From Cytophagaceae bacterium (GTDB taxonomy: Bacteria; Bacteroidota; Bacteroidia; Cytophagales; Cytophagaceae): a stretch of DNA of 64,000 bases. Shown here one piece after another: positions 47,764 to 59,570 of this stretch; positions within the stretch are counted from its first letter, which is position 1; every line of letters starts with the position of its first letter. The position numbers and the translations under genes were made by a program. The DNA is taken from contig JALONH010000004.1 in assembly GCA_025455005.1 (NCBI GenBank), positions 1 to 64,000 of the forward strand. Reading direction: 5' to 3'. The notes under the pieces were generated by a model that was not told where the DNA came from, ran no database searches, and saw nothing but the letters and a program-made list of their open reading frames with translations.

Positions 47764-49149
47764 ATGAAGTACCAAGCCTTTATTTTTACACTTGTTATTG
47801 TAGTATGGACTGCCTGCAAGAGTGTTCAGACGGTAGCGCCAAGCGCTTCGTATTCTTCTTATGTACATACGCCTCCGATTTCTGAAGTTTTTATTCCAAT
47901 AGAAATTTCTATTCCGGAGTTGGAAGGCATGTTGAATAAGCAGTTACAAGGGGTTCTGTATGAGGATTCGGATTTCTCAGATGATTTACTGTTAAAAATT
48001 GAAAAAGTAGAACCGATTCGATTACGCATGAATGGTGATGCCATCGAGTATACAGTTCCGATTAAATTGTGGACTAAAGCAGGATATGAGTTCAAACAAT
48101 TTGGTCTAAGTTTAAAAGATGTGTACGAGGGCGATTGTTCTTTACGTATTTCCTTCTCAACTAAAATAGAATTGAATCCTTTTTGGGAACTACGCCCCAC
48201 GACTACATTGCTATCGTATGAATGGATAGAAAAACCCACCATAACAAAAGGTCACATTACCATTCCAATAGGATTTGTAGCGGACAAACTGATTAAAACT
48301 CAAGAGAAAGTTATAACACAATCCATAGATGAACAAATAAAAAGTCAGATACCCATGCGCCGATATATGGAACAAGCTTGGACGGCTATGCACCAACCGA
48401 TTCAGTTTTACGATGATCCGGTTACGTGGTTGAAGATTACTCCTAAAAAAATATTGATTACTCCCTTAACAGGTACGGCCACAAGTTTAAAAGCGTTTGT
48501 CAAAATTGAGGCTATTACTGAAACGAAGGTTGGGAAAAAACCTACAGTGGTTCAAACTAATTTACCAAATGTCAGTTATACTAACGATCATTCCGGTGCG
48601 TTTATCATCACCGTGCTTAATGGAGTCGATTATGAAGATGCTAGTGTTGTAGCGGCTAAGTATTTAAAAGGAGAAACGTTTAGCTCTCCCTCCGGAAAGA
48701 AAAAAGTTACGGTTGATAGTATTCGTTTGTTTGGGAAAGGGGAGCAACTTGTTATTGAAACGCACGTGTCAGGAGCTTTGAAAGGAGCTATTTATTTTAC
48801 AGGCATTCCCACGTATGATTCACTTCGCCAAGTAATATATTTGAAAAACTTGGATTACGAATTACAAACTAAAAACGTATTGGCTAAATCTGCCGGGTGG
48901 TTATTGAAAAGTATTTTATTAAAACGTATGAAAGAAGTCATGGTGTATGATATAAAATCAGATATGATAGCCATACGTCAATCATTGGATGAGGCCTTGC
49001 AGTCTTATGCCTTAACTCCTCAAGTAAAGATATCGGCAAAAATCCAACAGATGTATCCTAAAACTATATTCTTAACACCGGAGTCTATGTCGTTCGTACT
49101 TTTTATCTCCGGTGACATGCAAGTTCGAGTAAACGGATTAGACCAATAA
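47764..49149 (+). CDS. DUF4403 family lipoprotein
   Basis: A 461-residue lipoprotein (lipobox WTAC, Cys near residue 18) matching DUF4403, a Bacteroidota family built of repeated lipid-binding-type beta domains. Marks include ISEVFIPIEISIPELEGMLNKQLQGVLYED, WELRPTTTLLSYEWIEKPTI and IYLKNLDYELQTKNVLAKSAGWLL. Residues ~20-35 are a Ser/Pro linker. Function unknown; location outer or inner membrane, periplasmic face. Its stop overlaps the helicase start as TAATG, coupling an envelope lipoprotein to a cytoplasmic helicase. Confidence 0.88.
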   Translation: MKYQAFIFTLVIVVWTACKSVQTVAPSASYSSYVHTPPISEVFIPIEISIPELEGMLNKQLQGVLYEDSDFSDDLLLKIEKVEPIRLRMNGDAIEYTVPIKLWTKAGYEFKQFGLSLKDVYEGDCSLRISFSTKIELNPFWELRPTTTLLSYEWIEKPTITKGHITIPIGFVADKLIKTQEKVITQSIDEQIKSQIPMRRYMEQAWTAMHQPIQFYDDPVTWLKITPKKILITPLTGTATSLKAFVKIEAITETKVGKKPTVVQTNLPNVSYTNDHSGAFIITVLNGVDYEDASVVAAKYLKGETFSSPSGKKKVTVDSIRLFGKGEQLVIETHVSGALKGAIYFTGIPTYDSLRQVIYLKNLDYELQTKNVLAKSAGWLLKSILLKRMKEVMVYDIKSDMIAIRQSLDEALQSYALTPQVKISAKIQQMYPKTIFLTPESMSFVLFISGDMQVRVNGLDQ

Positions 49150-52100
49150 TGAAAACAATACTGGAACGATTTCGGAAAAGATTGTTAGATGTTACATCAT
49201 CGAACCGAACCGTATTCCATAGTAGGCTAACTAAATCCTTGGACTTAGATTGGCATGCTGTTGATTATTTTAAAGGAGCATCCAAGGAAAGTGTGAGTGG
49301 TTTTATTCTACGATCTAATCCTACCATATCGATACTTCCGGTATACAATGCACGAAGTGAAGAAGGACAGCAATTATCGAATACGTTGCAACATCTCTTT
49401 ACCAAACTTCGTTATCTATCGGAAGAAAGAGGCGTTTATGATTTAAGTATAGGGTATATGTATTTGCAAGGCCGGTGGAAAGATGGGACTTCGGTTCGAG
49501 CTCCTTTGATACTTCAGCCGGTTCGTTTAGAAGAGAATCAAGGTAAATGGATCTTAACCAAAACGGATTCGCCACAATGGAACGAAGCACTAGGGATTGC
49601 TGCCGGTTATTTTCATGCTATACCCCTCGATTTGTCTGATTGGATCTCGTTATTAGATGAAACGAATGAGTTGAATACCATTGTTTTTAAAACCAATTTG
49701 TATGAACAACTAACTCAACAGGGTATAGATGTTCGATTTGCTTCCGATTATTTTACAGATACTCTACTCCCGTTTACATCACAAACCACTACGGATTGGC
49801 AAAAACAATTCGGTGCAGGGGAACTTTGGATACAATCTCATGCTGTACTTTCTATTTATCCTACATCTGGAAGCGTATTAGATAAAGATTACCGTACATG
49901 GTTAGATTTGGAAATACAAGACGAGATAGAGTCTTTTTGGTTATCTAAAACACTACCCTCCACTTCCGGTTCTTCAACCTTTCTTCCTTTTCATACAGAT
50001 GCGTTTCAAGATGAAGTACTTCAAACAGTATCCGGAGGTGCTTCTATAGTAGTTCAAGGCCCACCCGGTTCCGGCAAGTCAGAAACTATAGCCAATCTGG
50101 TTGCCTCTGCCATGGCGAAAGGAAAGAAAGTAGTAGTCGTTTCTCAAAAGAGAGCAGCATTAGATGTTTTGTATCACCGATTATCAAGTATTCAGATTGA
50201 TTCCCATGTTGCTTTATTGCAAGACATACATAGTGATCGAAAAAAAATCTATCAAACCATAGCATCGCATATTGAACAACTCGATACCTATAAGATGGAA
50301 GATAGTCAGTGGAGTTCTATTGAATCAGAAAGAAGGTTTACAGTTTGCTCGGATATTTTTTCTCAGTATGATAAAGAAGTAATACAATACAAACAAGCCC
50401 TGTTCGATACATCAATCGCTGAGTTTTCTGCTTATGAATTGTATTTGACACTTAATAAAAATAATATTTCCGAACTTTTTTCCAGTAGTTATATAGGTTA
50501 TCCTAAGTCTGTATTACATCATTCTATAGCACAATTGGAAGCCTTAATTCCTTATCAGGAACTTTTAACTGAACACTCTAATTGGTGGAAGGTACGTGTT
50601 TACGACCCTGAGGCTTATGCAGATTCTTTTCGAAGAACTAAGGTAGCAAAGGAATTATATGATCGTGTTCTCCATTTTGTAGATACGACGAATCAATATC
50701 ACATCAAAGTATTAGGACTTTTTTACCAACAGTGGAAGCAAGTTTCATTTAAGGATTGTATGCCTCCGTCAACATGTTTTGTCCACCATTTACAATTAAA
50801 AGATGTAGACTCTTTCTGTTCATACTGGTATCCGATCTATGAAGAGTACAAAATGGTACAACAACGCTATTCGGGAATGAGTCCGGAGGAACTAAATGCT
50901 TTGGTATTATTTTTACAACAATTAGAAAGTCAACAGCCTTGGATTCGATGGGTTAATGCTATACTGGAATATAAAAAATACAACTATTACAAAAATATTT
51001 TCTTGGGATTAGGATATGTATGGACTAGTCAAGATAGAAATAAAGCAATTGTAGAATTAACAACTGCAATAGAATGTCTAAATAAAATAATGTCAGGAGC
51101 TACAAAGTGGCAACTGTCTGAATTGAATTGGCTAACTACATTAGATCAGCTGCAAGTGTTGAAAAATTCCTATCAGTACATGCTTCAATTTTTTTATATC
51201 GATATAGAACAAACAGTAATCAGTTGGAGAACTAGTATGGAGCTATTGGAGGTTGATGTTAGTCTATTGAAACAACCGGCTTATTTTTTAACTAATTATA
51301 GTGTTGAACAAATCGGTTTTGCTTTACAAGAACCCAATTCGATTGATCCTTGGGAAAAGTGGGTGGCTCAACATACTGCAGATATACTATCGTATACAGC
51401 ACTGGAACTTCAGTTGACCAAAGAAACTAAAGCGTTGATGCAAAAAATAACCGGGTTAGGGTTGTTGTCTAAATCTAATGTAGAAGTAGCGGTACATTCT
51501 ATTTATTATTTTTGGCTGCAGCATCTAGAACGCATTTATCCAATTTTAAAAGTAGTCGACTCTATAAAGTGGAATCAACGGTATACACATTGGCCAAAAA
51601 TATATGAAGAAAGAAGGCATTTATCGGCACAACAAGTCCGTCAATCTATTCGACTACATACCTATCAAGGTAATACCTACAATCGCTTACAAAATAGAAC
51701 GTCCTATCGAGACTTATACCATCAGGTTACTAAAAAAAGAAGTGTTTGGCCAATTCGAAAGTTAATGTCGGAATACAGGGATGAACTATTTCAACTTATA
51801 CCTTGCTGGATGATGACACCTGAAATGGTCTCGATGTCGTTTCCGATGACAACTTGCATCGACTTGGTTATTTTTGATGAAGCATCACAGTGTTATCCGG
51901 AAATCGCATTACCCATTATCTTTAGAGCGCAACAAGTTGTTGTTGTCGGGGATTCTAAACAAATGCCACCTTATGATGTGTATCAAATACGTACAGATGA
52001 GGAAACAGAGGATTCTACTTTAGAAGAATCAGCAGAATCCATTCTTGATTTTTGCGAGAAGTATCTCCCCTCTCTTTTGTTAAAGGGACATTATAGAAGC

Positions 52101-52958
52101 CAACACTTAGCCTTGATTGAATTTTCCAATAAGCATTTTTATAATTCGGCTTTGATGTATATTCCTCCCTTTACTACAAAAGAAGATAATCCACTATCTT
52201 ACATTTATTTACATACCGGAAGATGGGCACAACAACAGAATTTGGTGGAAGCCGATTGGATTGTATCCGATGTAGTGAAAAAAATAGCACTAGGCCAACA
52301 TTCTATTGGGGTTATTACGTTTAATTATCCTCAAGCTATCGGTATTGAAAAACGGTTAGTGGAGACGGCACAAAAATTAGGCTTGGCTATACCGGAGTCT
52401 GTATTTGTTAAAAATTTAGAAAATGTCCAAGGCGACGAGCGCGATTATATTTATTTATCTGTTGGATATGCGCCTAATGCTATAGGGATACTCCAGCGTC
52501 ATTTTGGTTCATTAAACAAATCCGGTGGAGAAAGACGATTGAATGTTGCCATAACAAGGGCGCGGAAACATATGACCGTAGTCACTAGTATTTTGCCTCA
52601 TGAATTAAATACAGAAGGATTAAAAAACGAAGGAGTGGTTTTGTTAAAAGAGTACTTACAGTATGTCTATCAAGCTTCCGCTATGAATTGGAAGTCATTT
52701 CAACAGCATTGGAAAAAAAATATTCCATCCATATCAGCTTCTGCTGCTTATACATCCCTATACGGTACTGCAGAAGGTAATTATCCGTTTATTGATTTAA
52801 TCGAAGAAAAATCGACTTCAGACACTACTCTCTGGATTGATACAGATGATGCCTTACAACGCACATCTGCTCGTCATCATTTTTTATATAAGTGTATGGA
52901 AATGCAACAGAAAGGATGGACCTATCAACATTACAGAAGTAAAACCTTTTTAAAGTAA
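49149..52958 (+). CDS. DUF4011-type superfamily 1 helicase
   Basis: A 1269-residue SF1 (Upf1/DNA2-like) helicase. The N-terminus (FRKRLLDVTSSNRTVFHSRL) is the DUF4011 start. Walker A VQGPPGSGKSET lies near residue 303, a long helical insertion spans ~400-890, Walker B VIFDEASQCYPEIALP is near 910, followed by VVVVGDSKQMPP, GHYRSQH, QGDERDYIYLSVGY (near 1094) and RRLNVAITRARKH (near 1127). Many DUF4011 helicases carry a C-terminal endonuclease-like domain and DUF3320; none is recognisable here, the last ~110 residues being unassigned. Role in DNA or RNA transactions; defence involvement is possible but not indicated by neighbours. Confidence 0.9.
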   Translation: MKTILERFRKRLLDVTSSNRTVFHSRLTKSLDLDWHAVDYFKGASKESVSGFILRSNPTISILPVYNARSEEGQQLSNTLQHLFTKLRYLSEERGVYDLSIGYMYLQGRWKDGTSVRAPLILQPVRLEENQGKWILTKTDSPQWNEALGIAAGYFHAIPLDLSDWISLLDETNELNTIVFKTNLYEQLTQQGIDVRFASDYFTDTLLPFTSQTTTDWQKQFGAGELWIQSHAVLSIYPTSGSVLDKDYRTWLDLEIQDEIESFWLSKTLPSTSGSSTFLPFHTDAFQDEVLQTVSGGASIVVQGPPGSGKSETIANLVASAMAKGKKVVVVSQKRAALDVLYHRLSSIQIDSHVALLQDIHSDRKKIYQTIASHIEQLDTYKMEDSQWSSIESERRFTVCSDIFSQYDKEVIQYKQALFDTSIAEFSAYELYLTLNKNNISELFSSSYIGYPKSVLHHSIAQLEALIPYQELLTEHSNWWKVRVYDPEAYADSFRRTKVAKELYDRVLHFVDTTNQYHIKVLGLFYQQWKQVSFKDCMPPSTCFVHHLQLKDVDSFCSYWYPIYEEYKMVQQRYSGMSPEELNALVLFLQQLESQQPWIRWVNAILEYKKYNYYKNIFLGLGYVWTSQDRNKAIVELTTAIECLNKIMSGATKWQLSELNWLTTLDQLQVLKNSYQYMLQFFYIDIEQTVISWRTSMELLEVDVSLLKQPAYFLTNYSVEQIGFALQEPNSIDPWEKWVAQHTADILSYTALELQLTKETKALMQKITGLGLLSKSNVEVAVHSIYYFWLQHLERIYPILKVVDSIKWNQRYTHWPKIYEERRHLSAQQVRQSIRLHTYQGNTYNRLQNRTSYRDLYHQVTKKRSVWPIRKLMSEYRDELFQLIPCWMMTPEMVSMSFPMTTCIDLVIFDEASQCYPEIALPIIFRAQQVVVVGDSKQMPPYDVYQIRTDEETEDSTLEESAESILDFCEKYLPSLLLKGHYRSQHLALIEFSNKHFYNSALMYIPPFTTKEDNPLSYIYLHTGRWAQQQNLVEADWIVSDVVKKIALGQHSIGVITFNYPQAIGIEKRLVETAQKLGLAIPESVFVKNLENVQGDERDYIYLSVGYAPNAIGILQRHFGSLNKSGGERRLNVAITRARKHMTVVTSILPHELNTEGLKNEGVVLLKEYLQYVYQASAMNWKSFQQHWKKNIPSISASAAYTSLYGTAEGNYPFIDLIEEKSTSDTTLWIDTDDALQRTSARHHFLYKCMEMQQKGWTYQHYRSKTFLK

Positions 52959-52965
52959 TACAACG

Positions 52966-53808
52966 ATGAAAATGTTACTTCCCTTTCTATATTATTGTAA
53001 AATTCTACTTACCCCTACCGTTTCTATAGAACAAAGTCCAAACTATAAAAAAGTTGACATACGAATACATAAATATTCTACTTTAGATAGTGTAGTAACA
53101 GAATCCTCCGGATTATGTAAGGTCAATGATTCTACTTATGGGACAATAAATGATAGCGGTGGAAGCCCGTGTATTTACCTTGTCGATAGTTTGGGTGGTC
53201 TTAAAGAAACGATAGAAGTACCGAAAGCTAAAAATAAAGATTGGGAAGAAGTGCAATGGGTAGATGCTACAGCTACTTGGTGGGTAGGAGACATTGGTAA
53301 TAATGCAAACAAACGAAAAAATTTATGTTTTTATGAATATACCGGTGATAGTACGACAAAGCGCCATCCATTTCGATATGAGGATCAATTCGATTTTCCA
53401 CCAACAGAATTAAATTTTGATGCGGAAGCTTTTTATTATAAAAGCGATACTTTGTATTTACTTTCTAAAAACAGAACTAAGCAAGACGAAAAATTATATA
53501 GCCTGCCTATAGGTGACAGTATTGCACGGGTACAACAGAGAATGTCGATACAAGGGATGGTTACGGCAGCCTCACTCCGGACATCAGAACATAATCGGGA
53601 ACGCTTACTGGTACTGACGTATGGTTGGATTTATATTTTTGAACTACAGGAATCGGATAGTCAAATTCGTTGGACACCTATCGTTGTCCGAAAATTTTGT
53701 AGAGGGGGACAAAATGAAGCCATCTGTTGGGTGGATGCTTCCACCTTTTTAATAACAAATGAAAAGGGTGTAATTTTTAAAGCTACGATTCGAGGTTTAA
53801 ATGAATAG
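52966..53808 (+). CDS. Beta-propeller-like exported hypothetical protein
   Basis: A 280-residue protein with a hydrophobic N-terminus (probable signal peptide, ~1-20). The pattern ESSGLCKVNDSTYGTINDSGGSPCIYLVDSLGG, then NKDWEEVQWVD, WWVGDIGNNANKRKNLCFYEY and DAEAFYYKSDTLYLLSKNR belongs to a widespread Bacteroidota family of predicted propellers with no known function. It is 7 bp after the helicase gene, ending that operon, and overlaps the convergent ion-channel gene by 12 bases. Confidence 0.82.
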   Translation: MKMLLPFLYYCKILLTPTVSIEQSPNYKKVDIRIHKYSTLDSVVTESSGLCKVNDSTYGTINDSGGSPCIYLVDSLGGLKETIEVPKAKNKDWEEVQWVDATATWWVGDIGNNANKRKNLCFYEYTGDSTTKRHPFRYEDQFDFPPTELNFDAEAFYYKSDTLYLLSKNRTKQDEKLYSLPIGDSIARVQQRMSIQGMVTAASLRTSEHNRERLLVLTYGWIYIFELQESDSQIRWTPIVVRKFCRGGQNEAICWVDASTFLITNEKGVIFKATIRGLNE

Positions 53809-55908
53809 AATAATACAGCATAGTAGAATATAAAAGATTCCAACTATAACGCTGGCTTTTCGAATATCGATGCTTCTGACTTTATCTGTGTCGTATATGG
53901 CATTCACCACGATAACAATCATAAAATTAATCAATACAATGATAAAGGTAAGCCAAAAGAGATAATCGGCTTTGGTAAGATTTTGAGCTGTAGGTGTCGT
54001 GTCAGAAAATGAGATAGAAAAGGCAACAATGGACATGAAGACCCCAATACTGACTTCACCTAAATTTTCAAATGAAATATCTTTAATAAATAATAAGCTG
54101 ATAGAAATTAAACCAATTAGGAAAAGAGGAAGAACGATTTCTAATAGAGGAGTTGTAGGCTTACGAGCTATATCTAGCCGGAAGTAAATATTTTTAAACT
54201 CGTATAGTTTTTCTTCGTCCATATCCGGATCTCCATGCATGCCTCGGCTTACTTCATTGTCTACAGTTACATAAAATTCTGATTTGTCCCATTCATTAAT
54301 CTTAAATGTTGCTAATTTCTTTTCATCATACGTAAAACTCTTTTGATCAAAAGATACTTTTAATTCAGTGGATGGGTTGAGAATTTCTGCGCGTATATAT
54401 ATTTCTTGGTGATCAAACGGATAATTTTCTAATTCATAGTTGACATAAAATACACCGGATACTTTATACAATTTGTAGATTTGAGTCTTATATATTTTTT
54501 CAAATATTAACTCTCGAGAACTCTCATTCTGTTTCATGTTTTGGAAAATAATATATTTTTCCGCATCAAAGTTGGAAGAGTCTAATTTTACCCAATAATA
54601 AAAATCGGACGTAAACGAATTCGCATTCACATCAATATTGTAAATATCCACGATTTCCATTCCAAAAAATAAATTGGGTATTACTTCTCTAGATTCATTC
54701 AGTTGAAGAGGGTAGGAATGGAAATTTCCGTTGGAATATTCTGTAAAGGTAAGTTCTGGAATAACAGTATTCGTAGAGTCGAATATATAGATTTCATCTT
54801 CCTCTTTAACGGTAGTTCTTTTTAATCCGGAGAAGTATTTTCTGAAATCATGTTTACCCAAAGTGAGTGTGTCGCCTTGTTTTTCAAATTTGTTTTTTAT
54901 CATTTCAACCGCATCCCAACAACGTTCTACAAATAAAGGATGATTGGGGTTTTCAAATAAGTCAGGGTGAAAGGCCTTTAATTTTTTAATATCATGGTAT
55001 AATGGTTTAGACAAAGCATCCGTCGGATAACTTACGATGATCAGTTGATTGTCATTTTTATAACCAAACGTTTTAATAACAGTGGGATTAACGATATAAG
55101 CATGTCCTAATCCTTTGAAAGTAGAATACTTTCTATTGATATAAGCCAATAAGTGATTCCCTACATCCACATGTACATTGAATACGGTCCAAGTATCCAA
55201 TGTTTGAGGATTGCTAAAATAACTGTCAATAGATTGATATAACTGTATTGAATCTTCTTTGGTAAAGGATTTTCCGGATACTAAAAATTCTTTTTCAATT
55301 GTAATATCAGCATCTTGAAAAGCTTTTTTATAAAAGGGGTGAAGGCTATAATCGGACTCACTGATAAAATTTACTTTTTTTACTTTTAGTATTTTGGTTA
55401 TAAATGTAGTGATGTCATAAGGGAGATTGTCTTGAGATCCCGTGAATATGGCAGCCGGTCCGTAGTCTAAATGGTTTCGATCTGCATTGATGGCAATGAT
55501 CGGAAGCTGGTGCTTTCGTATGGTGCTTTGAGCGACACTTAAATGTTGTCCCCAAGTATTGTCAATAATAGCTACAATGGAAGAGTCTTGGGCGATGATA
55601 TTGTATATGGAATCACTTACTTTACCACTTTTTTGACAATCAAATGTTTTTAACTCTAATCGGTTGTATGGTAACTGAAGTCGACTTAAATATTCTTTTA
55701 AAAAAATCTCATGCAGTAAATCAAATTTATTTTTGGGTTGAAGGTGTACCGGAATACTGTCTGCATGATTGGTATATCGTCCGATATAAGCTAAATATTT
55801 AACCGGTTGTGATGCTTGGCTATAGTTTCGTAATGAGTACCATGCCATCCAACCAACTACAGTGAGAATCGGTAAAATCAGGTAAACGATTATTTTTTTA
55901 GACAGCAT
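53797..55908 (-). CDS. Fusion of a periplasmic-binding-protein type 1 domain and a pentameric ligand-gated ion channel
   Basis: A 703-residue membrane protein in three parts. Residues ~7-25 are a signal or anchor helix. Residues ~35-380 look like a type 1 periplasmic ligand-binding domain of the LivJ/receptor class (IIAQDSSIVAIIDNTWGQHLSVAQ, LPIIAINADRNHLDYGPAAIFTGSQDN, KKVNFISESDYSLHPFYKKAF). Residues ~400-585 are a Cys-loop-receptor-type extracellular domain with the hallmark YPFDHQ (496-501); no Cys-loop cysteines are seen, as in other prokaryotic channels. The channel follows: M1 588-608, M2 about 617-636 starting with a Glu in NLGEVSIGVF (the -1' position in known cation channels), M3 ~650-675, M4 ~688-703. 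Last gene of the ricT-gldH operon. Confidence 0.88.
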   Translation of the reverse strand: MLSKKIIVYLILPILTVVGWMAWYSLRNYSQASQPVKYLAYIGRYTNHADSIPVHLQPKNKFDLLHEIFLKEYLSRLQLPYNRLELKTFDCQKSGKVSDSIYNIIAQDSSIVAIIDNTWGQHLSVAQSTIRKHQLPIIAINADRNHLDYGPAAIFTGSQDNLPYDITTFITKILKVKKVNFISESDYSLHPFYKKAFQDADITIEKEFLVSGKSFTKEDSIQLYQSIDSYFSNPQTLDTWTVFNVHVDVGNHLLAYINRKYSTFKGLGHAYIVNPTVIKTFGYKNDNQLIIVSYPTDALSKPLYHDIKKLKAFHPDLFENPNHPLFVERCWDAVEMIKNKFEKQGDTLTLGKHDFRKYFSGLKRTTVKEEDEIYIFDSTNTVIPELTFTEYSNGNFHSYPLQLNESREVIPNLFFGMEIVDIYNIDVNANSFTSDFYYWVKLDSSNFDAEKYIIFQNMKQNESSRELIFEKIYKTQIYKLYKVSGVFYVNYELENYPFDHQEIYIRAEILNPSTELKVSFDQKSFTYDEKKLATFKINEWDKSEFYVTVDNEVSRGMHGDPDMDEEKLYEFKNIYFRLDIARKPTTPLLEIVLPLFLIGLISISLLFIKDISFENLGEVSIGVFMSIVAFSISFSDTTPTAQNLTKADYLFWLTFIIVLINFMIVIVVNAIYDTDKVRSIDIRKASVIVGIFYILLCCIILFI

Positions 55909-55909
55909 A

Positions 55910-57049
55910 CTACAATAATGAGGTAAAGAAAGTAGGGTTATTCTTCTTATAATTATAATATACTTTGCATAAAGGTACTATTAGGAGTAACAGAAATATA
56001 GTAAATATATATACCATGGGCAAATCAAAAGGCAATCCACCGGTTGATCGTATAGGTAATCCATAAAGGTGTGCTAAAGGTTGTCCAATCACTACAGCTG
56101 TCGCATGTGCAAGGAATAAATGAAGTATATAAAAAAACAAGGGCACTCTTCCGATTGTGTAAAATAGTTTCCACCGTTTTTTATTAGTAACCGATATACA
56201 AAAAAGTAATAGAAATAGTATAGTAAAGGTGGCTGTAATGTAATGAAGAGACATAGGGTATTTGGTGACGTTTAGAAAACTAAAAATTGTTTTGAGTGTG
56301 GTACTTTCTACATTCCAAGAATGTGGGTCACCCCAATTATTAGAGAACCTTAACAACAAGAAAAGGAGTAAGGAGATTAGAGAAGCCCAAAGCCAGGGTG
56401 TTGATTTTTCTTGTTTTAACCACGTAATACTAAAATCATACATCCCATACCCCAACAATACGACCCCCCACATAGGTACAATGGGATATAAGATATTTAA
56501 TTGTAAGGTATCATTAAGAAATACTTTTCCCGGAACCATTAGTATGTGCCAAAAAATAGAGGAGCTAGATATATTATAAAAAAACGCGCTTGTTATTAGG
56601 GTGAATAGTCCAATCAATCCACTAATTGATTTCGGTAGCCATAAGAATGGGATACAAGCCAACATCGAAACACCTAATGCCCATAAGACAAGTAATCCAA
56701 AACTATCAAAGGAATAATCAAAGTGCCAAGCTAGTTTGATTAAAGTAAATTCTAAAGTAATTAAGAAGAGACCTCGAGTGAATAAAAAAACAGCGATATC
56801 CTGAATAGATTTACGTTCCATTTGTATAGCTATGGAATAACCGGTGAGCCAAGCAAACGCCGGAGCACACAAGTGCGTTATCCATCGGGTTGTGAATAAA
56901 GCTAAGGTAGTTTTATTCGGGTCAGTAGGTGAAAAATCGAATGCATGTATATGAAAAAAGTCACGGGTGTGATCGAGCAACATCAATACCATAATGATGC
57001 CTCTTAAAATATCTAATGTAAAAATTCGATGAAGTGGCTTGGGGGGCAT
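55910..57049 (-). CDS. DUF1624/heparan-alpha-glucosaminide N-acetyltransferase-like membrane protein
   Basis: A 379-residue polytopic membrane protein with about ten helices. The N-terminus RIFTLDILRGIIMVLMLLDHTRDFF is the signature of the acyltransferase superfamily related to DUF1624 and the catalytic part of human HGSNAT; GRVPLFFYILHLFLAHA lies near the C-terminus. Members transfer acyl groups across the membrane to sugars; the substrate here is unknown. It is separated by one base from the gene on each side, so it is tightly coupled to DUF4919 and the ion channel. Confidence 0.88.
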   Translation of the reverse strand: MPPKPLHRIFTLDILRGIIMVLMLLDHTRDFFHIHAFDFSPTDPNKTTLALFTTRWITHLCAPAFAWLTGYSIAIQMERKSIQDIAVFLFTRGLFLITLEFTLIKLAWHFDYSFDSFGLLVLWALGVSMLACIPFLWLPKSISGLIGLFTLITSAFFYNISSSSIFWHILMVPGKVFLNDTLQLNILYPIVPMWGVVLLGYGMYDFSITWLKQEKSTPWLWASLISLLLFLLLRFSNNWGDPHSWNVESTTLKTIFSFLNVTKYPMSLHYITATFTILFLLLFCISVTNKKRWKLFYTIGRVPLFFYILHLFLAHATAVVIGQPLAHLYGLPIRSTGGLPFDLPMVYIFTIFLLLLIVPLCKVYYNYKKNNPTFFTSLL

Positions 57050-57050
57050 A

Positions 57051-57677
57051 TCAGTGGTCTATACTATATCCTTCCGGTGGCATTTTAAAATAAACACTTT
57101 TCCATTTGCGTTTATTTTTTACCAGTTTGAATTCAATTAATCCCTCCCCATGGGATACATCTTCAAACGATTGGAGTTTTAAATAGGCAATCATTTCTAA
57201 AGCGTCGTAAACACTGTTCACACGATAAGGGAAATCAGTTGTTCCGGAGCCGCTTTGTAATATGAGACGACAAAATAACGCATATCTGCTTAAATAATAT
57301 TCAGCATCTGCTGATTGTTGAGTAGAATGTAACGCATACGAATATTCCAATAGAGCGGTTAGGCTCACGGGATTTATTCTTAAGATGGAGTCGGCAAGAG
57401 CCATCACCTCTTTGTGTTTCCCGGCTACGGAATACGGTTTTAATAAGGCCTCTTGAAAGCCAATTTCTTCCGGTTTATACAAAGGTATTGTGGGATACCC
57501 ATAGTAGATTAAATAAAAATCGGATTTGGTTAAACTAGTATCTGACGCGTTTAAGCGTTGTACTAAAGATGGATACCCCCCTTTTTTTTCTATGGCAGTA
57601 AGGAGTGAATCTTTCGATTGGCTCCACCCAAGGAAAGAAAGAAAACTACAAACGATAGAAAATAAAAAAGTACGCAT
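57051..57677 (-). CDS. DUF4919 family exported protein
   Basis: A 208-residue protein with a signal peptide to about residue 19 (GWSQ) and a DUF4919-type body: FYLIYYGYPTIPLYKP, a TPR-like AGKHKEVMALADSILRINPVSLTALLEYSYAL and a late YFKMPPEGYSID. Unknown function, presumably periplasmic. It starts 5 bp after gldH. Confidence 0.82.
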   Translation of the reverse strand: MRTFLFSIVCSFLSFLGWSQSKDSLLTAIEKKGGYPSLVQRLNASDTSLTKSDFYLIYYGYPTIPLYKPEEIGFQEALLKPYSVAGKHKEVMALADSILRINPVSLTALLEYSYALHSTQQSADAEYYLSRYALFCRLILQSGSGTTDFPYRVNSVYDALEMIAYLKLQSFEDVSHGEGLIEFKLVKNKRKWKSVYFKMPPEGYSIDH

Positions 57678-57682
57678 ATTGT

Positions 57683-58153
57683 CTATAGGTTCTGTTTCAG
57701 TTTTATGCCAACAGCCTCTATTCCCTTTAAGGTATCTTGTCGCATGTATTGCTGAATGCGCAATGTGTGCGTACCTGCTGTAGGAAATCGTAATGTACTA
57801 TCAGATAAAATTTCTATGTCAAAGGAGTTCCCAAATCCGCCCCCCATAGGTTCGCCACTTTTACCGTTAAACAAATCTAATCCTTGAAGTTTTTTGGATA
57901 TCATCTGTTGTTTCGAATTTAAAATCGACCGATTCAACCAGATGTTATAATAGGGATAATCTACCGTATACCGCAACGTATAATAAAGCGAATAGGTAGC
58001 GGTGGGATCGGTTATATCAAAGGTAATATCGATTGGTTCTTGTTGTACCCAATTCGAATTATCTAATGGTACCATCGTATGCGTTACCAGATTTGACTCA
58101 GAACACGCTGATAGAAAGAGTATGGAAAATATAAAGAAGAGTGAATTACGCAT
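57683..58153 (-). CDS. gldH: Gliding motility lipoprotein GldH
   Basis: A 156-residue lipoprotein with lipobox SILFLSAC (Cys 17) and the GldH pattern: NWVQQEPIDITFDITDPTATYSLYYTLRYTVDYPYYNIWLN, GGGFGNSFDIEI and AGTHTLRIQQYMR. In Flavobacterium johnsoniae GldH is needed for gliding. The ATG at 58153 lies inside the last codons of ricT (8-base overlap); a much longer open frame upstream is the ricT tail read in another frame. GldH next to RicT is common in Bacteroidota. Confidence 0.93.
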   Translation of the reverse strand: MRNSLFFIFSILFLSACSESNLVTHTMVPLDNSNWVQQEPIDITFDITDPTATYSLYYTLRYTVDYPYYNIWLNRSILNSKQQMISKKLQGLDLFNGKSGEPMGGGFGNSFDIEILSDSTLRFPTAGTHTLRIQQYMRQDTLKGIEAVGIKLKQNL

Positions 58154-59570
58154 GATCCGGTCCGGGATTTGGAGAAGAGGATGAGTTATTATTTGGTCTA
58201 GGTCCACGTCTATTTTTATAAGGGTTCGGTCTATTATTTCCGTTATTCCCTTCATTCGAACGGTTCTCTTGATTTCGATTGTTTGGTTGTTGGTTTTGAC
58301 GCTCCGGTCTTGGACCTTTGTTTTCGAAAGGGGCTGGAGAGGAACGTTCGGGTCTTGGGCCTCGGTTCTCCGGACGTGGAGCGTTATTTTGTCTTTCCGG
58401 TCGATCCCCTTTTGTAACAGGAGGTGTGGAACTGTCGCCGGATAAGCTGGTAGAGGCGTTTGGTTTTTTCTTTTTCTTCTTCTTTTTCTTTTTGAACTTA
58501 TCATCAAAACGCGACAGTTCTTCTTGCTCACGTTGTTGAGAGGCAACTTCTTCAGCAGAATCTACGACTGCGTTGGTTTCAAGAGAAATAGGGGTCTCTC
58601 CGGATTTATTCAATTCGAGTATTTCAGCAACACGGTCTACCGGTATGGGGTGCCAAGTACTTTCATCTCGGTATCCAAACCACATGATGCGTCGGAAAAT
58701 ATCTGTCTTTTGTAAAAAGGCATCCCCTTTAGATGTTTTCAACGGAGCCTCCACTTCCGGAATTCCTTTTAGTGCTTCTAAATAGGTGTCTAACTCGTAA
58801 TTCAAACAGCATTTAAGTCGACCGCATTGTCCTGATAATTTAGAAGGGTTAAGGGACAAGTTTTGATAACGTGCAGCAGATGTATTGACGTTTTTGAAAT
58901 CCGTCAACCAAGTGGAACAGCATAATTCTCGACCACAGGAACCTATACCTCCTAGTCGCGCGGCTTCATGACGTAGGGAGATTTGTTTCATCTCCACTCG
59001 TATCTTAAACTCCGATGCTAATAATTTTATTAGTTCCCTAAAATCTACCCGATCATCCGCTGAATAATAAAACGTAGCTTTTGTATTGTCGGCTTGGTAC
59101 TCGATGTCCGACAATTTCATATTCAATTTTAATTGTTGAATAATTTCTCTTGTTCGATACAACGTACCATGCTCTCGATTTCGCGCTTGATCAAATTTTT
59201 CAATGTCTTTGGCTGTAGCTTTTCGGTAAATTGCTTTAAGTTCATCGTTATCGGCTACATTTTTTTTACGCATTTGTAGGCGTACCATTTCGCCTTGTAG
59301 CGAAACATACCCGATATGATGACCTGAAGCCACTTCGATTACAACCGGATCTCCGGCGTAAAGCTCTAGTTGTTTTGTGTTGCGAAAAAATTCTTTACGT
59401 CCATTTTTAAAACGTATCTCTACAACATCATACGCCGGAAGTGCTTCCAACGTCATGTTACCCAACCAATCAAACGAATTTAATTTATTACATCCTCCGG
59501 AACTGCAGCCGCCGCTTCCACAGCCTTTACTTTCGGTACTGCAACCCGAACTACATGAAGAACAACCCAT
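58146..59570 (-). CDS. ricT: PSP1/RicT-domain protein with N-terminal Cys-rich and C-terminal disordered regions
   Basis: A 474-residue RicT (YaaT) homologue. The core PSP1 domain spans roughly 45-300, with FDQARNREHGTLYRTREIIQQLKL, FYYSADDRVDFRELIKLLASEFKIRVEMKQ and the cysteines of GSCGRELCCSTWL and QCGRLKCCLNYE. Residues 2-27 hold ten cysteines in CxSGC-like runs. After ~360 a 12-Lys run leads into a Pro/Arg/Asn/Gln-rich tail to the C-terminus, probably disordered. In Bacillus the RicA-RicF-RicT complex carries iron-sulfur clusters and affects RNA processing; the Bacteroidota role is less clear. First gene of the operon. Confidence 0.9.
   Translation of the reverse strand: MGCSSCSSGCSTESKGCGSGGCSSGGCNKLNSFDWLGNMTLEALPAYDVVEIRFKNGRKEFFRNTKQLELYAGDPVVIEVASGHHIGYVSLQGEMVRLQMRKKNVADNDELKAIYRKATAKDIEKFDQARNREHGTLYRTREIIQQLKLNMKLSDIEYQADNTKATFYYSADDRVDFRELIKLLASEFKIRVEMKQISLRHEAARLGGIGSCGRELCCSTWLTDFKNVNTSAARYQNLSLNPSKLSGQCGRLKCCLNYELDTYLEALKGIPEVEAPLKTSKGDAFLQKTDIFRRIMWFGYRDESTWHPIPVDRVAEILELNKSGETPISLETNAVVDSAEEVASQQREQEELSRFDDKFKKKKKKKKKKPNASTSLSGDSSTPPVTKGDRPERQNNAPRPENRGPRPERSSPAPFENKGPRPERQNQQPNNRNQENRSNEGNNGNNRPNPYKNRRGPRPNNNSSSSPNPGPDHA

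Follow-up and report, generated by a model that had tools for sequence, protein, structure and literature searches.

The window analysed here, a stretch of 64,000 nucleotides of DNA from a Cytophagaceae bacterium, carries a gene whose single-chain product has a type I periplasmic binding protein (PBP) as its head, followed by an entire pentameric ligand-gated ion channel (pLGIC) module (Table 1). The interval and domain order given by the first-pass annotation are correct; family profiles, an AlphaFold2 model and fold comparison are in accord on both halves. The coding strand is minus; a plus-strand gene in the same interval was rejected, as that frame is riddled with stops. Other landmarks named by that annotation were also found, namely an N-terminal anchor helix, the YPFDHQ motif within the beta-sandwich, a glutamate ahead of M2 (Glu614), and four transmembrane helices, seen both in the model and by hydropathy (hydrophobic segments 584–614, 616–634, 646–675 and 680–703). 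In the host's own family the gene ends a PSP1-gldH-DUF4919-acyltransferase run, and we found no description of a channel gene closing such a run in the literature searched.

Table 1. Features of the PBP-headed pLGIC gene and of the gene run that it closes
Feature	Coordinates	Strand	Evidence or remark
Whole gene, 703 aa PBP-headed pLGIC (P0001)	53797..55908	-	One open frame; ATG at 55908, stop at 53797-53799
Residues 1-32, N-terminal hydrophobic anchor / signal-anchor, without Cys	55813..55908	-	Hydropathy; modelled helix 2-32
Residues 33-385, type I PBP head	54754..55812	-	Pfam matches; VIA Z 21.0 to 3hut over residues 35-399
Residues 386-585, periplasmic pLGIC ligand-binding-type beta-sandwich	54154..54753	-	LGIC_1, PDB profile, model, fold comparison
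Pro-loop YPFDHQ, residues 496-501, no Cys-loop cysteines	54406..54423	-	Alignment
M1, residues 587-607	54088..54150	-	Modelled helix; hydropathy
M2 and leading turn, residues 614-636	54001..54069	-	PDB profile alignment, model, family alignment
Glu618, M2 position 2'	54055..54057	-	Invariant in fused clade; alignment
M3, residues 646-671	53896..53973	-	Model; hydropathy
M4, residues 683-702	53803..53862	-	Model; hydropathy
HGSNAT_cat-type membrane acyltransferase, 1 nt upstream of channel gene	55910..57049	-	Pfam E 1e-9
DUF4919 protein, same gene run	57051..57677	-	Pfam
GldH lipoprotein, same run	57683..58150	-	Pfam E 2.6e-29; 155-aa start chosen inside scanned ORF 57683-58546
PSP1-domain protein, first of run	58146..59570	-	Pfam E 2.5e-30

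The search for homologues keeping both parts, proposed in the first-pass annotation, gave 15 other distinct full-length sequences, 42–64% identical, whose assemblies belong to Cytophagales and to other Bacteroidota. The sixteen fused proteins form one clade, and the head tree agrees on the main splits with the channel tree (53 rows, with duplicate proteins and the truncated sequences L043, L089 and L090 left out). The culture-collection strain Cytophaga aurantiaca DSM 3654 is among the members. A lipobox-like N-terminus with its Cys is present in 8 of the 16 and absent from the window protein; the literature searched gave no description of this feature in the clade. No relative turned up when viral contigs were scanned with the window protein, and in a search of viral structures pLGIC-like and PBP-like proteins at 11–18% identity were among the best five rows.

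The channel half matches the NCBIfam model LGIC_1 at 8.7e-7, far under the curated cut-off of that model, which also finds the fused proteins of five of six other genomes (7.7e-8 to 3.9e-6). Searched against the PDB with a family profile, this half gave pLGIC chains at 3.3e-7 to 2.4e-3 among the best 60 of 198 rows; the ELIC-GLIC chimera was matched at 3.3e-7 and DeCLIC weakly, at 1.5e-4. The Pfam pLGIC models had no match to the window protein at E up to 1, nor did PF02931 at E 0.001; the missing PF02931 match is a matter of model sensitivity and not of a defining trait of pLGICs. The same genome has a second, head-less pLGIC, which PF02931 finds. The Pro-loop residues P497 and D499, and Arg582 ahead of M1, are present in all 16 fused proteins and in all 37 simple, head-less pLGICs that were compared. 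Sandwich, Pro-loop and M1–M4 are shared with GLIC and ELIC.

By structure, Foldseek relates the protein to GLIC at 6.9e-15 with the full-length model and at 1.5e-12 with a channel-only model, and VIA relates the modelled channel to nAChR (Z 15.3, rmsd 9.6 Å over 227 residues). The full-length model has a pLDDT of 78 (62 for the inferior channel-only model), with about 87 in the head and block values of 44–68 over residues 491–590. The beta-sandwich and the four membrane helices that follow it have homology to solved pLGICs, and their interface is modelled at low confidence: rmsd values are 9–15 Å and target-normalised TM-scores mostly 0.35–0.43. The first-pass annotation had asked whether M1–M4 might fail to resemble a pLGIC; fold comparison says otherwise, with the placing of the helices against the sandwich poorly modelled.

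The modelled head superimposes on 3hut, a putative branched-chain amino-acid binding protein, with a VIA Z of 21.0 and an rmsd of 4.0 Å over 328 residues. This is the two-lobed PBP-I fold, which answers the earlier question of whether the first half is a type 1 PBP at all. By sequence, 14 of 15 family members match Peripla_BP_6 in Pfam at E up to 0.1 (best 1.6e-4); the head of the window protein itself is under the gathering cut-offs, with 13.2 bits vs 31.7 for PF13458 and 17.1 vs 25.9 for PF04392. A profile of the head alone, made from 13 of 15 sequences (L039 and L041 left out), gave only weak matches in the PDB, with LivJ (4gnr) at 0.075, the same level as a chance match to LptD. In other Bacteroidota genomes, the portion of the family profile that covers the head also finds stand-alone proteins (1.6e-7 to 2.2e-6), and the one that was examined looks LivJ-type. 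The case for the head rests on the fold comparison and on the single-genome profile matches, the PDB sequence search being weak.

LivJ, LivK and other Peripla_BP_6 proteins share the head fold at Z about 19–21. LivJ/LivK-type binding proteins are soluble transport proteins, and in the head their amino-acid contact residues are replaced. The LIVBP positions that we take to grip an amino acid are S79, T102 and E226; in the head the first is Gly (G120), the second Asp (D143) and the third A, S, T or I at position 270, mostly Ala or Ser, by a profile alignment whose register is approximate at 11% identity. These replacements leave the amino-acid sensing suggested by the first-pass annotation without support, and no description of them was found in the literature searched. 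Four of the seven alignable LIVBP contact positions are nevertheless invariant in 15 of 15 sequences, as compared with 47 of 353 positions over the whole head (p 0.007). Residues lining the cleft include W119, N141, D143 and H246. Since the cleft is well conserved and its amino-acid contacts are altered, another small ligand is likelier than an amino acid.

In fold the head also compares well with the N-terminal domains of AMPA/kainate receptors and the ligand domains of mGluR (Z 18–19). The proposed likeness to class C and glutamate receptors stands for fold and architecture, namely a membrane receptor that bears an N-terminal domain of PBP fold, and falls for the channel, which is of another type: the channel or 7-TM part of the animal receptors is unrelated to pLGIC. 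The AMPA/kainate N-terminal domains are not known to work with a small ligand, and by analogy with these matches the head may instead be structural.

In the pore helix the fused proteins depart from those that lack a head. A basic residue (R/K) at M2 position 0' occurs in 36 of the 37 head-less pLGICs compared and in none of the 16 fused proteins, where the residue is hydrophobic. Conversely, Glu at 2' is present in all 16 and in none of the 37. The window protein carries Glu618 at 2' in addition to Glu614, and G617, E618, V619, S620, G622 and I632 are identical throughout the clade. GLIC also has a Glu at -2', a numbering that agrees with our profile alignment; unlike the fused proteins, GLIC and ELIC have no head, and the clade differs from them in its 2' Glu and hydrophobic 0' residue as well. 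Glu rings at -2' and 2' with no positive 0' ring suggest the passage of cations, possibly divalent, so that cation selectivity is plausible from the residues present. The 0' basic residue is 79% conserved in pLGICs, so it is usual and not defining (PMC4795631). No description of an absent 0' basic residue with an invariant 2' Glu in such fusions was found in the literature searched.

What, then, might such a protein do? We consider it likely that it is a homopentameric receptor-channel of the inner membrane, probably cation-conducting, which is gated or tuned through its head by a periplasmic small molecule. Five identical subunits would assemble, each probably tethered at its N-terminus, with the two-lobed head in the periplasm, followed by the beta-sandwich and the four membrane helices, of which M2 would line the pore. 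A small molecule from the periplasm, probably not an ordinary alpha-amino acid, would close the cleft of the head; the closure would be relayed through the sandwich and Pro-loop so as to open or tune the pore, and cations, possibly divalent, would pass the Glu rings at -2' and 2'.

A less probable reading, still a serious one, is that the head is a modulator or a gatherer of ligand and not the trigger, the agonist (or protons or Ca2+) acting at the inter-subunit site of the beta-sandwich. The channel half is indeed the more conserved, with 89 of 318 positions invariant vs 47 of 353 in the head, although the conserved cleft speaks against a merely accessory head. The different N-terminal domain of DeCLIC is described as flexible and as accelerating gating, and it is not shown there to bind agonist (PMC12664993); Tasneem et al. 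suggest that a fused domain pre-concentrates or senses ligand (PMC549065). This reading and the preferred one are not exclusive, because it overlaps the tuning arm of the latter. A bolder version of the receptor-channel proposal, which we regard as doubtful, would see the channels as a Bacteroidota lineage apart, gated by the PBP and tethered twice to the membrane. In it the 2' Glu ring would stand in place of the usual 0' basic ring and make a calcium-type selectivity filter, so that Ca2+ or another divalent ion would enter the cell once the head senses a metabolite in the periplasm; in the home family the channel would be wired to the gldH/acyltransferase run, and perhaps to gliding.

We think it quite unlikely that the protein, instead of working as a channel, has a receptor-like or structural role in the membrane, such as signalling by change of shape to partners from the gldH-acyltransferase run. 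The unusual M2 lead-in with its missing 0' basic residue would fit such a role, but the identity of several M2 positions in all 16 proteins is what a pore would show. The gene neighbours also fit it within the host's own family, where the 10 of 19 genomes with the channel gene are also precisely those with the acyltransferase gene (Fisher 1.1e-5, ignoring kinship), the two being adjacent in 9 of the 10. Outside that family, however, the acyltransferase gene was present in none of eight chosen genomes with a fused channel (seven distinct if G510 and G939, whose channel proteins are identical, are one genome), and it was present in 4 of 10 other chosen genomes in which no fused channel was seen. 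An obligate partnership of the channel with an HGSNAT-type acyltransferase was rejected on these absences, and the link is lineage-specific, since the pairing is not kept elsewhere. A role in gldH-based gliding is perhaps hinted at by the neighbourhood. A chance fusion, frameshift or assembly artefact uniting two genes has a negligible chance of being correct, because the 15 other distinct full-length sequences share the architecture, from separate assemblies of both isolate and MAG origin, and the lone apparent split gene, L043, was rejected as such, being a contig break with both pieces in G740.

The architecture is already known in kind, and the differences in pore positions mark this branch. 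Fusions of PBP-I and pLGIC domains in alphaproteobacteria were reported from genomes by Tasneem et al. (2004; PMC549065), which bears out the first-pass remark on genome surveys; Magnetospirillum magnetotacticum and Bradyrhizobium japonicum are named there as having PBP-I/ART-LGIC fusions. As described there, these proteins likewise have an N-terminal PBP-I domain, a pLGIC sandwich and 4-TM and were proposed as ligand sensors; compared by that description, they differ in being alphaproteobacterial, whereas the present clade is from Bacteroidota. To tell one fusion event from two, alphaproteobacterial fusions were sought on plasmids by tblastn, the queries being the window protein, a head-less pLGIC and an Azospirillum pLGIC; each of the five pLGIC loci examined lacks a head (three from the eight Azospirillum records, one from Legionella adelaidensis and one of two from Streptomyces). 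DeCLIC from Desulfofustis (PDB 6v4a, 7q3g) is a pLGIC that likewise has an added N-terminal domain in the periplasm, described as two jelly-roll-type lobes with Ca2+ sites (PMC12664993). No such lobes were found here, the head being modelled as PBP-I.

According to a paper of November 2025, DeCLIC is the only pLGIC whose additional N-terminal domain has been even partly characterised (PMC12664993), so that the coupling of a binding domain to the pore of a pLGIC is an open question, as is the role of bacterial pLGICs. In the literature searched we found no report of a PBP-headed pLGIC being tested. Since the clade has a member in a culture collection, its cleft is conserved, its pore distinctive and its gene context clean, it seems practicable to screen for ligands, knock the gene out and solve structures. 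In these bacteria a domain that catches small molecules is joined to a relative of the ion channels of human nerve receptors, and the fused clade would be a modular counterpart to the animal glutamate receptors, in which a head likewise sits on a channel, there of an unrelated kind.

The first-pass annotation placed a type I periplasmic-binding-protein (PBP) domain and a pentameric ligand-gated ion channel (pLGIC) in one chain at 53797-55908 of the window. These coordinates were confirmed by reading of the open frame, and the strand, which had not been given, is minus: the gene runs from ATG to stop as a single frame encoding 703 residues, and the plus strand over the same interval is closed, with no open frame there. 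The union of PBP head and pLGIC is a real, conserved fusion.

Layout of the 703-residue fused protein
Feature	Residues	Basis
Hydrophobic anchor	about 1-32	predicted model and hydropathy
PBP head	33-385	
Beta-sandwich	386-585	
M1	587-607	
M2	614-636	
M3	646-671	
M4	683-702	

Pfam pLGIC models did not match the window protein, and NCBIfam LGIC_1 covered its residues 491-677 at 8.7e-7, far below the strict cut-off. In single-genome searches LGIC_1 was also found in the fused proteins of five of six other genomes (7.7e-8 to 3.9e-6), that of genome G066 giving no match. A phmmer search of the PDB with the window protein returned the nAChR beta chain, ELIC and others at about 1e-4, and a profile of 15 family members found an ELIC-GLIC chimera (3.3e-7), ELIC (about 1e-5), DeCLIC (1.5e-4) and GLIC (about 1e-3). 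GLIC was ranked first by Foldseek for both the full-length model (6.9e-15) and the channel-only model (1.5e-12), and VIA matched the latter to nAChR, GABA-A, GluCl, glycine-receptor and ELIC chains at Z 14.6-15.3, with rmsd of 8.9-10.6 A over 219-270 residues. Block pLDDT for residues 491-590 of the full model is 44-68; as modeled, the channel half is clear in its fold family and not in its fine geometry. By alignment, two Pro-loop residues, Pro497 and Asp499, and Arg582 ahead of M1 are kept in 16/16 fused and 37/37 simple, head-less pLGICs. Cys-loop cysteines are absent from the window protein, whose cysteines lie at 91, 330, 697 and 698. The same genome encodes a second, head-less pLGIC (contig C40, locus L001, 1117-2094 minus; Pfam Neur_chan_LBD, 2.3e-7), which adjoins a protein carrying a type IX secretion (CHU_C) tail. 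A further pLGIC-like gene, annotated as hypothetical, lies at 1743-2879 of L085, a linear Streptomyces plasmid.

Matches of the window protein alone to PBP models, ABC_sub_bind (0.0034) and Peripla_BP_6 (0.07), are weak and under cut-off, and 14 members of the 15-member family set match Peripla_BP_6 when E values up to 0.1 are allowed, 1.6e-4 being the best. The head part of the family profile finds separate proteins in other Bacteroidota genomes (1.6e-7 to 2.2e-6), one of which, L053, looks LivJ-type by eye. One-to-one profile alignment of the head with E. coli LivJ, LivK and nine others gave E 3.9e-5, probability 70% and 11% identity; against PDB sequences the head profile yielded only the LivJ entry 4gnr, at 0.075, the same level as a chance match to LptD. 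The head block of the model averages a pLDDT of about 87, and VIA superposed it on 3hut, a putative binding protein for branched-chain amino acids (Z 21.0, rmsd 4.0 A, 328 residues within 35-399), and on AMPA/kainate N-terminal domains and mGluR3 at Z 18-19. In the window's own genome a Peripla_BP_6 search at E 0.001 found nothing; because this search also misses the head itself, it could miss similar proteins there. Azospirillum sp. B510 plasmid pAB510b (L086, 3950-7354) carries a head-less pLGIC, then alr, then a stand-alone periplasmic protein that matches ABC_sub_bind (PF04392, 3.1e-9); this may be the same pairing in unfused form.

A search for homologues keeping both parts, as the first-pass annotation had proposed, yielded 16 distinct full-length sequences, the window's included, after deduplication of two overlapping sets. 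Full-length matches (44-65% identical) occur in 10 other genomes among 118 searched, the window's own included, and the genome_contigs collection holds 14 full-length loci and one partial, from Cytophaga aurantiaca, other Cytophaga and Cytophagaceae, and MAGs titled Chitinophagaceae, Cytophagales, Flavobacteriales, Bacteroidetes, Chlorobiota and Armatimonadetes. The last is the partial one (L043/L089/L090), a contig break over two contigs, both pieces of which occur in G740, a genome that turned up when the class of the Chlorobiota-titled G739 was sampled; the Armatimonadetes title is probably wrong. An order-level draw gave the full-length gene in 12/291 genomes, own included, and a phylum-level draw of 395 in the window's own genome alone; one carrier, G012, is a single-contig genome. 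In a 53-row pLGIC tree all 16 fused channels fall on a single branch (support 100/100, length 3.53), the place of which among pLGICs is unsure, as the program warns of long branches meeting. Head and channel trees agree on the main split (L012/L042/L039/L041 versus the rest) and share the groups L003-L005, L006/L008/L009 and L036/L038; they disagree at weakly supported forks, such as the joining of the window's protein and L007/L010/L011. Judging from the shared main splits, head and channel appear to have been inherited together after one fusion in a Bacteroidota clade.

Positions in M2 were set by gapless alignment to GLIC, in the usual prime numbering: E614 (-2'), N615 (-1'), L616 (0'), G617 (1'), E618 (2') and M625 (9'). 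Position 0' is L, I, M or V in the fused sequences and basic in 0/16 of them, and R or K in 36 of the 37 simple pLGICs, all of which come from loci collected in this analysis and include some near-copies. Glu occupies 2' in 16/16 fused versus 0/37 simple channels (Gly in 23 of the latter), and -2' is Glu in 12, Asp in two and Gly in two fused sequences. In the set of Jaiteh et al. (PMC4795631), 79% have a basic 0' residue, so its loss is unusual, not unique. We infer that the ring of Glu at 2' favours divalent cations.

The ligand contacts of the amino-acid-binding protein LIVBP correspond by profile alignment to head residues I52, G120, N141, D143, V245, A270 and F326, with Y150 in a gap, in a register that is approximate at 11% identity. 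G120, N141, D143 and F326 are invariant in 15/15 sequences (4/7 contacts versus 47/353 head positions, p 0.007), as are W119, H246 and two adjoining residues next to the gap, D186 and Y187; I52, V245 and A270 vary. LIVBP S79, T102 and E226, which hold the ends of the amino acid, are replaced in the same approximate register (11% identity) by Gly, Asp and Ala/Ser/Thr/Ile. Invariant contact positions together with these changes suggest a cleft that is kept and a chemistry that differs.

The channel gene ends a tight minus-strand run, PSP1 protein, GldH, DUF4919 protein, HGSNAT_cat acyltransferase and channel, with the four upstream genes at 55910-59570; three of its junctions are gaps of 1, 1 and 5 bases and the fourth is an overlap of 5, and the start of GldH within it is our choice. 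All four occur in order at the channel loci L029, L030, L031, L033 and L035; L032 and L040 have them except for a DUF4919 match. The run is absent at L034, L036, L037, L038, L041 and L042; L039 has a weak GldH match alone, about 3.3 kb off, and L043, which begins inside the channel gene, shows none of the four. Of 19 genomes of the window's family, the 10 that have the channel are also the 10 that have the acyltransferase, and the two genes are adjacent in 9/10; outside that family the acyltransferase is found in 0/8 fused-channel genome handles versus 4/10 others. On the plus strand, 49149-53808 holds a 1269-aa DUF4011/AAA_11-AAA_12 helicase-type protein, a relative of which also lies close to the channel gene in L031, L033 and L035, and then a 280-aa ORF that has no Pfam matches and whose 3' end shares 12 bases with the channel gene.

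PBP-I/pLGIC fusion is a kind already known. The statement in the first-pass annotation that fusions have been noted in genome surveys is borne out by Tasneem et al. (PMC549065), who report PBP-I fusions in versions "like those" of M. magnetotacticum and B. japonicum. They also count three versions in C. hutchinsonii, one of them simple, name Cytophaga among MCP-N/Cache fusions, and propose chemotactic roles. Jaiteh et al. (PMC4795631) left terminal parts out of consideration and describe such associations as known at the genome level only. No further description of a PBP-headed pLGIC appeared among the matches listed by searches of the open-licence literature. What is new here is a Bacteroidota clade with changed pore, cleft and anchor.

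By eye, the N-terminus closes with a lipobox-like G/A/S-Cys and then polar residues in 8/16 fused proteins, the Cys about 6-10 residues ahead of the first strand of the head; the other eight, the window's included, have a hydrophobic stretch without such a Cys (the start of L041 is uncertain). The N-terminus of the window protein may possibly be a cleaved signal peptide. The protein is most likely a periplasmic small-molecule receptor-channel that passes cations, by a mechanism that we infer. If membrane tethering is a conserved trait, each subunit would be anchored at its two termini, with the head restricted in position by the short linker.
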